Of a DNA stretch of 64,000 nucleotides, positions 6,232 through 62,596 are shown in pieces (position 1 is the first letter of the stretch; each line of letters starts with the position of its first letter). This DNA comes from Neobacillus sp. OS1-2 (GTDB lineage Bacteria > Bacillota > Bacilli > Bacillales > Cytobacillaceae): assembly GCF_030915505.1 (NCBI RefSeq), contig NZ_CP133265.1, forward strand, positions 62,001-126,000, written 5' to 3'. Both the position numbers and the translations under genes were made by a program. The notes below the pieces were generated by a model. That model ran no database searches. It saw only the letters and a list, made by a program, of their open reading frames with translations, and had not been told where the DNA came from.

Positions 6232-6259
6232 CGCCTTATAAATGAAAGGGGTCATCATC

Positions 6260-7000
6260 ATGAACGGAAATATTCATTCTATTGAAACATTAGGAACTGT
6301 CGACGGACCAGGAATTCGTTACGTAATTTTTACCCAAGGCTGCTTATTGCGCTGTCAATTTTGCCATAACGCAGATACATGGGAAATCGGCACGGGCAAG
6401 CAGATGACTGTTTCCGAAATCATGGATGATCTGATCAGCTATCTTCCTTTCATTCAGGCTTCTGGGGGAGGAATTACTGTTAGCGGTGGTGAGCCATTGC
6501 TGCAAATTCCTTTCCTAACGGAATTATTCAAAGAATGTAAAAGGCAAGGAATTCATACAACCATTGATTCTTCCGGTGGCTGCTTCTCCCATTCCAAACT
6601 TTTTATCGAGCAGCTGGAAAAACTTTTAACGGTTACTGATTTAGTCCTTCTTGATTTAAAGCATATAAATCGGAAAAAGCATGTTCAGCTGACAGGAATG
6701 GCGAATGACCACATCTTAGAATTCGCAAAATTTTTATCCGATCGAAACGTTCCTATTTGGGTTCGTCATGTATTGGTGCCAACCGTTACTGATGATCCGG
6801 AAGATCTCCAAAAACTTGGTGAGTTTATTGGTACACTTGAAAATGTGGAGAAGATAGAGATCCTTCCTTACCATAAACTAGGGGTATATAAATGGGAAGC
6901 CCTAGGACACGAGTATCCGTTAAAACATGTCGAGCCACCAACTGAAGAAAAGGTCAAGTATGCTTATCAAGCGATTACTGCCCATTGGAAAAGGCGTTAA
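6260..7000 (+). CDS. pflA: Pyruvate formate-lyase activating enzyme
   Basis: A radical-SAM enzyme that installs the glycyl radical on PflB. The CLLRCQFC motif (Cys28, Cys32, Cys35) binds the 4Fe-4S cluster and TVSGGEP is the SAM-binding GGE motif. The open frame reaches back to 6242, but AAAGGGG lies between that ATG and the one at 6260, so 6260 is the likely start, giving 246 residues, the usual length. It is co-transcribed with pflB and followed by a strong terminator. Confidence 0.95.
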   Translation: MNGNIHSIETLGTVDGPGIRYVIFTQGCLLRCQFCHNADTWEIGTGKQMTVSEIMDDLISYLPFIQASGGGITVSGGEPLLQIPFLTELFKECKRQGIHTTIDSSGGCFSHSKLFIEQLEKLLTVTDLVLLDLKHINRKKHVQLTGMANDHILEFAKFLSDRNVPIWVRHVLVPTVTDDPEDLQKLGEFIGTLENVEKIEILPYHKLGVYKWEALGHEYPLKHVEPPTEEKVKYAYQAITAHWKRR

Positions 7001-7010
7001 AGAAGAATTC

Positions 7011-7043
7011 AAACACCAATTCTTGAAGAATTGGTGTTTTCTT
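7011..7043 (+). terminator. Terminator of pflBA
   Basis: A 12-bp perfect stem (AAACACCAATTC / GAATTGGTGTTT) with a 5-base loop, followed by TTTTCTTTT. Confidence 0.9.
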
Positions 7044-7097: not shown

Positions 7098-7126
7098 TTG
7101 ATTATTTGGCTGTTCTCGGCTATACT
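7098..7126 (+). promoter_or_regulatory. Sigma-A promoter of the mifM-like/yidC2 unit
   Basis: TTGATT (7098-7103), a 17-base spacer and TATACT (7121-7126). It lies 35 bases before the TTG start of the leader ORF. No separate promoter is visible between the leader ORF and yidC2. Confidence 0.7.
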
Positions 7127-7160
7127 CATATCATTGGTTTAAAAGAAGAGGTGATAATTT

Positions 7161-7451
7161 TTGTTTCAGTTACTTATTGACCACTCGGATATAAATACCC
7201 TGAATGCTCTTTACGTCAGTATTTACTTGGGATTAATACTCAAATTTTTATTGGCTTGGGGTGTCGAGTATTCCTTTTTGGGCAATACTTCCGATCCAAC
7301 AAACACAAAAATAATTCACCCATTGGTTTTTTACCGTAAAAAAAGCGGATTACATGGAAGTTTTATTCTGAAAAGAATTGTTAAATATATTCGTAGAAAA
7401 GAATGTACTCAAGATGATTCTGAAGAACCTATTTCCTTCCTTTTCACTTAA
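7161..7451 (+). CDS. mifM: MifM-like arrest-peptide leader of yidC2
   Basis: A 96-residue protein with a TTG start and an AAGAGGTG ribosome binding site. One hydrophobic segment (about residues 15-34) is followed by a basic stretch (RIVKYIRRK, 72-80) and an acidic cluster near the C-terminus (DDSEEP, 85-90). It lies 30 bases upstream of yidC2. Its last codons, 7431-7441, are complementary to the yidC2 ribosome binding site at 7472-7481. In B. subtilis, MifM has this layout and position: when membrane insertion by SpoIIIJ fails, MifM stalls near its C-terminal acidic residues and frees the yidC2 (yqjG) ribosome binding site. Order, topology, C-terminal features and RNA pairing all agree. Overall sequence similarity looks limited, as expected for arrest peptides. 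The stalling function is inferred. Confidence 0.75.
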   Translation: MFQLLIDHSDINTLNALYVSIYLGLILKFLLAWGVEYSFLGNTSDPTNTKIIHPLVFYRKKSGLHGSFILKRIVKYIRRKECTQDDSEEPISFLFT

Positions 7452-7481
7452 CCAATTTAGACAAACATTCTAGGAGGAAAT
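7431..7481 (+). promoter_or_regulatory. Stem sequestering the yidC2 ribosome binding site
   Basis: ATTTCCTTCCT at 7431-7441, inside the leader ORF (codons 91-94), can pair with AGGAGGAAAT at 7472-7481, which is the whole yidC2 ribosome binding site. Ten pairs form with one bulged T. A ribosome halted on the acidic codons 85-90 would cover the left arm and open the site. Confidence 0.72.
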
Positions 7482-8276
7482 ATGAAAACAAAACGATCAT
7501 CTATCTTACTTGCAGTCCTTTTAATCTTACCAACTATGCTATTATCAGCTTGTTCATCTAATGCACAAAGTGGAAATAGCCATGGATTTTTTCAAACTTA
7601 TTTTGTCCATCCTTTTTCGACCATTATTCATTCAACAGCTGAACTATTCAATGGAAACTATGGTTTAGCAATTATTCTGGTCACCCTGGTGATCAGGCTT
7701 ATCCTCATGCCGTTCATGTTAAAACAATACAAAAATCAAATGGCAATGAAGGAAAAAATGGATGTCTTAAAGCCAGAAATGGATGTTATTCAGAAGAAAA
7801 TGAAGACGGAAAAGGACGCTAAGAAAAAGCAAGAACTTCAAGCTGAAATGATGGGTTTGTATAAAAAACATGGTGTTAATCCATTGAATATGGGTTGCTT
7901 ACCACTTTTAATTCAAATGCCAATTTTAACCGCCTTTTATTATGCGATTCGTGGTTCAAAAGAAATTGCCGCCCATCAATTCTTATGGTTTAATTTGGGG
8001 CATCCTGATATCATTATCACAATTATCGCAGGGGTAGTTTACTACTTCCAGTTTAAAGTATCTCAAACCAATATGCCGACTGCACAGCAGCAGCAAATGA
8101 AAATCATGGGTCTAATGTCGCCATTAATGATTGTAATGTTTTCCTTTAGCGCTCCTGCGGCACTACCGCTTTATTGGGTTGTTGGTGGGCTATTCTTAAC
8201 TACCCAAACCTTTATTAGCCACAGACTTTATAAATCAACAAAGTCGATCGAATCGACACCAGTTAAACAAAAATAA
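7482..8276 (+). CDS. yidC2: Membrane protein insertase YidC2 (OxaA2/YqjG type)
   Basis: A 264-residue YidC/Oxa1 insertase. The N-terminal lipoprotein signal ends in the lipobox LSAC (Cys24). Five membrane segments follow, with the conserved groove arginine at Arg72 (VTLVIRLILMPF) and a charged cytoplasmic coiled-coil loop at about residues 85-130. It inserts and folds membrane proteins alone or with SecYEG. Its place behind a MifM-like leader identifies it as the inducible second paralogue rather than the SpoIIIJ copy near oriC. The AGGAGG ribosome binding site can be hidden in a stem with the leader ORF. A strong terminator follows. Confidence 0.93.
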   Translation: MKTKRSSILLAVLLILPTMLLSACSSNAQSGNSHGFFQTYFVHPFSTIIHSTAELFNGNYGLAIILVTLVIRLILMPFMLKQYKNQMAMKEKMDVLKPEMDVIQKKMKTEKDAKKKQELQAEMMGLYKKHGVNPLNMGCLPLLIQMPILTAFYYAIRGSKEIAAHQFLWFNLGHPDIIITIIAGVVYYFQFKVSQTNMPTAQQQQMKIMGLMSPLMIVMFSFSAPAALPLYWVVGGLFLTTQTFISHRLYKSTKSIESTPVKQK

Positions 8277-61168: not shown

Positions 61169-62596
61169 CTATTCCGATACCGGCCCGGCAGTATTCATTT
61201 CTTGCACACCCTTATCCTTCTCAGTCAAGGCTTTAAATTTCTTTTCCTTTAATTCATCCCGCTTACTTCGTTTATCCTTTAACGAGGTGTGCAAAGGATC
61301 TTGATTGTAATTCTGACGGCGATTCAATCTTGTCAGGCCTTCCGGAACGAGATTAAAATGTTGATCGTTCATAATTCCGGCAATACCGGTCAGCGACCGT
61401 TTCTCTTCCATTTCCGGATATATCTCCTGAAAATACCCTTCTGCTCTGCCTGCCACATAGTTTTCAGGTTCCGGATAAGAAGTGATAACTCCTTCAAAAT
61501 TACGGAGAACGACTTTTTCCGGACTTTGGGAAATTAAATAATTGGGTTGCAGAGCAATTTTCCCGCCGCCTCCAGGGGCATCAACCACAAAGGTCGGAAC
61601 AGCATATCCGCTTGTATGTCCACGGAGTCCCTCAATAATTTCCAGTCCTTTCGATACAGGTGCCCGGAAATGACCAATTCCTTCTGACAGGTCACATTGA
61701 TAAATGTAGTAGGGGCGGACACGAATTTTGACAAGATCATGCATCAGCCTTTTCATAATCGGGACGCTGTCATTAATCCCTGCCAGGATAACCGATTGGT
61801 TCCCGACCGGAACGCCTGCGTTTGCAAGCATCTCACATGCCCTTTTTGAATCCTCGGTAATTTCGATAGAGGTATTAAAATGAGTATTTAACCATATAGG
61901 ATGGTATTTTTTTAAAATATTACAGAGGTTTTCGGTAATTCTCTGTGGAAAGACAACTGGTGCCCTCGTTCCTATCCGAATAATTTCCACATGATCAATT
62001 TCACGTAAATTCTTCAGTATATATTCTAAAATATTATCATTGATTAATAGCCCATCACCGCCAGAAATTAGCACATCGCGAACTTGTGGTGTCTGCCTAA
62101 TATAGGAAATGGCAGCATCCAGCTGTTTCTTCGGCACCCCCATCCCAATCTGCCCGGAAAAGCGTCTTCGTGTGCAATAGCGGCAATACATGGAACACTG
62201 ATTAGTTACAAGAAAGAGGACACGGTCAGGATAGCGGTGCGTCAGCCCTGGAACTGGAGAATCCTCATCCTCATACAAGGGATCTTCCAGGTCATATTTC
62301 GTTTTATAAATTTCCTTTGAAATCGGAACAGATTGCATCCTGATTGGACACCTTGAATCGTCAGGATTCATCAAGGAAGCATAATAGGGAGTAATATTTA
62401 AGGGAATGGTTTTCGTTGAAATCCTTACCCCCTCTTCTTCATCAGGAGTTAAGTTAATTACCTTTTTCAGATCATCTAATGTGCGGATCGTATTGGTTAA
62501 TTGCCAGAGCCAATCATTCCACTGTTCTTCGCTCACATCTTTCCAAAGCTCTATATCCTGCCAATGTCTTTTCGGTTTATATAAAAAATGTTTCAT
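61169..62596 (-). CDS. kamA: L-lysine 2,3-aminomutase
   Basis: A 475-residue radical-SAM/PLP enzyme that converts L-lysine to beta-lysine, the first step of lysine fermentation. The cluster motif CSMYCRYC (Cys134, Cys138, Cys141), LISGGDGLL and the PLP-lysine motif DAPGGGGK (about 338-345) are intact. The C-terminus is highly charged. AGGGGG lies 8-9 bases before the ATG. A consensus sigma-54 promoter stands 38 bases upstream, next to an activator gene. No kamDE or other lysine-pathway gene is in the window; these may lie beyond it. Confidence 0.95.
   Translation of the reverse strand: MKHFLYKPKRHWQDIELWKDVSEEQWNDWLWQLTNTIRTLDDLKKVINLTPDEEEGVRISTKTIPLNITPYYASLMNPDDSRCPIRMQSVPISKEIYKTKYDLEDPLYEDEDSPVPGLTHRYPDRVLFLVTNQCSMYCRYCTRRRFSGQIGMGVPKKQLDAAISYIRQTPQVRDVLISGGDGLLINDNILEYILKNLREIDHVEIIRIGTRAPVVFPQRITENLCNILKKYHPIWLNTHFNTSIEITEDSKRACEMLANAGVPVGNQSVILAGINDSVPIMKRLMHDLVKIRVRPYYIYQCDLSEGIGHFRAPVSKGLEIIEGLRGHTSGYAVPTFVVDAPGGGGKIALQPNYLISQSPEKVVLRNFEGVITSYPEPENYVAGRAEGYFQEIYPEMEEKRSLTGIAGIMNDQHFNLVPEGLTRLNRRQNYNQDPLHTSLKDKRSKRDELKEKKFKALTEKDKGVQEMNTAGPVSE

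Follow-up and report, generated by a model that had tools for sequence, protein, structure and literature searches.

A MifM homologue in front of yidC2 in Neobacillus, a probable self-stalling switch with a changed arrest motif

The locus lies in a window of 64,000 nucleotides, by which we mean the whole stretch of DNA analysed (positions 62,001 to 126,000 of contig NZ_CP133265.1, forward strand, from Neobacillus sp. OS1-2). A terminator-like hairpin divides a pflA-like gene from a unit made up of a short leader ORF and yidC2, and the stop codon of the leader is found 30 nt upstream of the yidC2 start (Table 1). A candidate promoter precedes the leader, in a region where the consensus scan finds four promoter-like sites against a mean of 5.2 in shuffled sequences, and therefore no excess. 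GAGGTGA or a close variant of it precedes the listed genus leaders. The genome (4.73 Mb, one contig) carries two YidC genes, and the other copy, 45% identical to yidC2, is flanked by ORFs that we recognised by eye and take to be rnpA and jag. The interval between rnpA and jag is the setting of spoIIIJ, and the other copy sits at a spoIIIJ-like place. The arrangement known for MifM, a small ORF directly 5' of the second yidC with the other yidC (spoIIIJ) elsewhere, is thus found here. The leader matches no family of Pfam or NCBIfam at E ≤ 1, and the one Rfam match is weak, on the opposite strand and under its cut-off.

The leader protein has a single hydrophobic segment (Kyte-Doolittle mean of 1.88 over 19 residues, the next best stretch reaching 0.36), and by hydropathy it shows another trait of MifM, one N-terminal membrane segment with a short N-terminal tail. 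Near its C terminus it carries an acidic cluster formed by D85, D86, S87, E88 and E89. The sequence-only reading of this locus had described a 96-codon leader with one membrane segment and an acidic C-terminal cluster, and all of these are present in the sequence. In the middle of the predicted membrane segment, K28 (codon 28, 7242-7244) is at least 90% conserved in 50 leaders and is possibly linked to YidC-dependent insertion.

Table 1. Features of the leader-yidC2 locus, in window coordinates
Feature	Position	Strand	Description and basis
pflA-like gene	6242-7000		Precedes the leader-yidC2 unit
Terminator-like hairpin 3' of the pflA-like gene	7011-7039	+	13-pair stem, then a T-rich tail
Candidate sigma-A promoter, TTGATT-17-TATACT	7098-7126	+	Consensus scan, 9/12 matches
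Leader Shine-Dalgarno (SD), AGAGGTGAT	7147-7155	+	Sequence; rated good
Leader ORF	7161-7451	+	96 aa, TTG start at 7161, TAA at 7449-7451; read from sequence
Predicted membrane segment, residues 17-35, with nearly invariant K28	7209-7265	+	Hydropathy, genus alignment A1
Arrest region, residues 69-91, equivalent to MifM residues 70-92, gapless	7365-7433	+	hhalign of A2 with A3, A3 against the MifM chain; column counts
Acidic cluster and proline, DDSEEP, codons 85-90	7413-7430	+	Sequence, alignment
Predicted stall, P-site codons 88-91, equivalent to MifM D89-S92	7422-7433	+	Inferred from alignment and published stall sites (PMC4423224)
5' arm of the sequestering stem (anti-SD arm), U7438 bulged	7430-7441	+	Folding, comparative pairing
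3' arm: yidC2 Shine-Dalgarno AGGAGG (7472-7477), spacer, A of the start codon	7472-7482	+	Sequence, fold
yidC2	7482-8276	+	Second YidC/Oxa1 insertase gene; 60KD_IMP, E 5e-46

Used as a query, the window leader finds matches in 59 of 60 genomes of the same genus (its own included) and in one further genome of the order, that is, in 60 of the 100 genomes searched; among named relatives the nearest record is Bacillus sp. MM2020_4, whose leader is 99% identical. In all 59 genus loci yidC lies directly 3' of the leader, at a gap of 8-36 nt. The leader start codon is TTG in 58 of them and GTG in one, a persistence that suggests selection for weak leader initiation. Among 397 genomes of the order, 20 are matched by a profile built from 50 genus leaders (A1) and 82 by a wider one built from 26 leaders (A2), the latter including G389 and G081 (L206, L207), where no credible leader is found at either place. 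At the level of the class, A2 matches in 10 of 398 genomes, some of them doubtful, and L135 from this search shows no credible leader. Some members escape the A2 profile: of 12 loci from genomes lacking a profile match, 8 carry a leader-like ORF before yidC2; the filter used finds no such ORF in the other four (L209, L217, L218 and L219).

In total 141 leaders were gathered, or 134 without seven duplicates (57 from the genus and 77 wider). For the tests of the stem, eight more brought the number to 142, and 14 of these were excluded for lack of the motif, of a yidC match or of an SD-backed start (L015, L148, L150, L166, L187, L193, L201, L202, L204, L208, L210, L213, L215 and L216), which leaves 128 (56 genus, 72 wider) in a sample that is biased to loci with a normal SD, since the filter requires one. 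A subset of 43 divergent leaders consists of L003 and 42 of the 72 wider ones, with mutual identity below 60% over at most 40 residues of the C-terminal part. In nine of the 72 wider loci (L132, L157, L163, L164, L169, L171, L175, L192 and L199) the leader ORF overruns the yidC2 start in another frame, with its stop 99-144 nt past the D86 codon, and there passing ribosomes could also block yidC2.

The sole genus genome of the 60 without a leader match (G033) keeps its yidC2. In this genome (L209, reverse complement, about 1450-1540) a promoter and SD resembling those of the leader are followed by TTG-Phe-Gln and then by the rest of YidC2. These three codons can be read as the first three of the leader or as YidC2 residues 36-38, and the leader and the YidC2 lipoprotein signal are both missing. 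An A1 search of G033 finds no leader elsewhere even at E 10. The arrangement, seen in one assembly, could be explained by a natural bypass of the control or by misassembly.

Compared with PDB sequences, the window protein gives nothing credible for MifM, and neither A1 nor A2 detects MifM among them at E ≤ 10. The link to MifM runs through intermediates. A profile of B. subtilis-type leaders from the same order (A3: L220, L133, L134, L203 and L197) matches the MifM chain 3j9w_AZ at E 2e-43, and hhalign aligns A2 with A3 without gaps over window residues 65-91 (probability 84, E 7e-6), which provides the alignment with MifM homologues that had been suggested as a check. The comparison of A1 with A3 is weak and suggestive at most (probability 4.9, E 0.008). 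Because of this, and because the direct PDB searches fail, it is through the intermediates alone that profile alignment identifies the leader as a MifM homologue and not merely as MifM-like. In the alignment R72, I73, K75, R78, R79 and K80 of the window leader correspond to W73, I74, K76, R79, M80 and N81 of MifM, and at the acidic end D85, D86, S87, E88, E89, P90 and I91 correspond to D86, E87, E88, D89, A90, G91 and S92. A register in which R72 I73 would equal MifM R69 I70 with a shorter spacer was dropped, as both the wider alignment and hhalign pair R72 I73 with W73 I74 gaplessly.

In B. subtilis MifM, R69, I70, W73, I74, M80, N81 and the DEED at 86-89 have been reported to be important, N81 to reach Arg66 of L4 and I74 to reach Phe85 of L22, and N81A to abolish the stall (PMC4423224). 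We counted the corresponding columns (MifM numbering) in 57 distinct genus leaders and in 42 divergent ones from outside it. Of the six single residues, four are replaced in Neobacillus, with R at position 69 in 0/57, R at 73 in 54/57, R or K at 80 in 56/57 and K at 81 in 55/57; in the window leader W73, M80 and N81 read R, R and K. These replacements lend support to the idea of an altered arrest motif. Position 88 is S or T in 47 of the 57 and position 91 is P in 55. The kept positions in the genus are 70 (I in 53/57), 74 (I or V in all 57) and 79 (R in all 57), together with the acidic ones, where D or E is found at 86 in 53, at 87 in 56 and at 89 in all 57. In window numbering, R78 and K80 are invariant in 50 aligned genus leaders, and D86, E88 and P90 are conserved in at least 90% of them. 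Among the divergent leaders, position 69 is R in 4/42, position 73 is W in 30/42, position 80 is R or K in 38/42 and M in 1/42, and position 81 is K or R in 32/42.

The basic pair is thus commoner and the M-N pair rarer in this sample, so that B. subtilis may be the outlier at 80/81. The window genome, G057 and the B. subtilis-type genome G199 share an identical uL22 loop, and three other genomes carry A for Q in it; all six loops contain Phe85 and Met90 (numbering of G199). Since the loop is the same, the difference lies in the peptide and not in that loop, which is the part of the tunnel that this comparison covers. Tentatively, at somewhat less than an even chance, we suggest that the B. 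subtilis arrest code is an exception in its family: most relatives in this sample, Neobacillus included, would place R/K-K at the tunnel constriction in place of M80-N81 against the same uL22 loop, and Neobacillus would add a proline at the G91 position, the arrest being rewired while the RNA switch is kept.

The yidC2 ribosome binding site can form a duplex with leader codons 90-94, and the minimum-energy fold of 7401-7500 (-12.2 kcal/mol) contains the stem of Table 1. The sequence-only reading had paired 7431-7441 with 7472-7481; this stem stands, with one more U-A pair, whereas the fold alone does not exceed chance (z -0.36, with 63 of 200 shuffles at least as stable). Single-sequence folding was rejected as evidence for the stem on this ground, and the evidence is carried by comparative tests and not by the window hairpin alone. 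When the arm is removed (7442-7520), a weak hairpin of -5.3 kcal/mol is left, which still pairs part of the SD. At two loci (L189 and L200) the SD region of yidC2 reads AGAAGGGTGA in place of AGGAGG, and the leader arm carries the matching TTCTATTTAA.

In the 43 divergent leaders, the duplex of each yidC2 start with its own arm has a mean energy of -16.3 kcal/mol, compared with -11.4 kcal/mol for foreign arms (Wilcoxon p 2.6e-8, a value that ignores remaining relatedness). In 12 of the 43 no foreign arm does as well as the own one, and the median share of equally good foreign arms is 5%; for the window leader this share is 24%. Masking the SD core weakens the preference: the own arm is then favoured at rank p ≤ 0.05 in 12/43 (median rank p 0.19; combined p 9e-7, again ignoring relatedness). 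Synonymous recodings, drawn for every species with the codon usage of six window genes, are beaten at p ≤ 0.05 in 45 of 55 genus loci (L061, which has an ambiguous base, being left out of the 56), in 54 of the 72 wider loci and in 34 of the 43 divergent leaders, and the window leader itself gives p = 0.045. Furthermore, the arm is placed just after the acidic motif. We scanned from as far as 240 nt 5' of the D86 codon down to the start region, and the 18-mer that best matches this region starts at +3 to +24 nt relative to that codon in 52/56 genus loci and 37/43 divergent leaders, and elsewhere in four and six, respectively; an earlier arm search began at +9 nt, so that its +9 offsets (27/72 wider loci) may be clipped, a limit from which the 18-mer scan is free.

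Codon choice within the arm is narrow in the 56 genus loci. Serine at codon 92 is TCC in 51/52, compared with 26/124 in the six window genes, and phenylalanine at codon 93 is TTC in 23/23, compared with 32/93. The arm is kept even where the amino acids are altered, as in L014 (IFLL), L035 (IFPPF) and L045 (FPSW). Together with the comparative tests, this argues that the RNA arm is most likely selected beyond the peptide. The stem over the yidC2 ribosome binding site, a further trait of MifM, is thus represented here by a predicted pairing and by its conservation.

The leading edge of a ribosome lies about 16 nt past the first base of its P-site codon. With this offset, a pause at codon 85 would bring the edge to about 7429 and leave the arm untouched, while stalls at codons 88-91 would bring it to about 7438-7447 and cover most or all of 7430-7441. 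B. subtilis MifM stalls at four sites, from D89 to S92 (PMC4423224), and from their equivalents in the alignment we infer a stall at codons 88-91 rather than 85-90. The earlier proposal that a pause on codons 85-90 opens the stem is accordingly retained as to the opening and shifted as to the codons, the first of which falls short of the arm.

In the scheme described for B. subtilis, insertion by YidC releases the stall, and failed insertion keeps yidC2 open (PMC6037786, PMC4423224, PMC13183943). By analogy, translation of the leader would begin at its TTG codon and present the N-terminal membrane segment of the peptide to the YidC machinery (SpoIIIJ, YidC2). With slow insertion, the ribosome would be stalled by the acidic C-terminal region at about codons 88-91, and the stalled ribosome would cover codons 90-94 and free the yidC2 ribosome binding site, allowing yidC2 to be translated. 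With prompt insertion, the pull would free the ribosome, the stem would reform and yidC2 would stay off. Stalling, release by force and induction of yidC2 are thus modelled on B. subtilis. An arrest leader of the MifM type before yidC2, as originally proposed, is supported by its position, the paralogue context, homology via intermediates and the conservation of the arm, and we consider it highly probable that the leader is the Neobacillus counterpart of MifM, acting as a self-stalling switch for yidC2.

Translational coupling without a true arrest could in principle produce a similar dependence, with ribosomes that pass or terminate near 7449 opening the stem and yidC2 simply following the translation of the leader. 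The short distance between the leader stop and the yidC2 start would suit such coupling, as would the nine wider loci in which the leader extends past that start. However, the arm keeps its place right after the acidic motif although the stop position drifts (the gap varies from 8 to 36 nt). The arrest region is also strongly conserved as a peptide, with the invariant and nearly invariant residues counted above, and so is the N-terminal half; we regard coupling as very unlikely. Conservation of the N-terminal half would also be expected if the leader were a small membrane protein with an independent role and its 3' end overlapped the control stem of yidC2 by chance. Such a protein is hard to reconcile with a leader that lies directly 5' of yidC in every one of the 59 genus loci and with last codons in which the RNA arm can persist despite changed amino acids (L014, L035, L045), and it seems to us extremely improbable.

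The replacement of the R69, W73, M80 and N81 equivalents could also mean that MifM has decayed in Neobacillus, with the stem kept and stalling lost. Against this, the replacements are themselves kept in the genus (at 73, 80 and 81 in 54, 56 and 55 of the 57 leaders), and basic residues at 80 and 81 recur in 38/42 and 32/42 divergent leaders. Conservation of the replaced positions makes a pattern unlike decay, which we hold to be very unlikely, and a MifM counterpart that stalls with a changed motif is the reading we prefer.

As the mechanism of MifM is already established in B. subtilis, the locus is not a new kind of regulator, and its value is as a comparison. It indicates that many genera retain the RNA switch, including the position of its anti-SD arm right after the acidic motif, but not the residues deemed essential in the model species. 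Which contacts MifM needs in order to stall thus becomes directly testable, using ribosomes that share the same uL22 loop. Our literature search found no paper treating both MifM and Neobacillus.

The window leader resembles B. subtilis MifM (YqzJ, 5' of yidC2/yqjG) in its length (96 compared with 95 aa), position, one N-terminal membrane segment, acidic cluster near residues 86-89 and stem over the yidC2 SD, and it keeps the equivalents of I70, I74 and R79 and the acidic residues at 86, 87 and 89. It differs in the exchanges of W73 to R, M80 to R/K and N81 to K, in having no R at 69, and in the S/T for E88 and the proline at the G91 position that predominate in genus leaders. Other arrest peptides are encoded 5' of yidC, namely CliM (uC_KYxIW) of Clostridia and ApcA of actinobacteria (PMC13183943). 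In that paper CliM is also given a stem over the translation start and is described as being without similarity to known arrest peptides. Its K-Y-x-I-W motif (PMC10987492) is absent from the window leader, which reads KYIRR, and the R-A-P-P / R-A-G-P motif of RAPP-type arrest peptides (PMC10987492) is absent from the leader translation. Fujiwara et al. (2024) report a MifM cluster of 572 sequences from 592 Firmicutes genomes, defined by a place 5' of yidC, an N-terminal localisation signal and negative charge between residues 70 and 100 (PMC10987492). By this definition the window leader would probably belong to the cluster, and the published list probably holds relatives of this leader.
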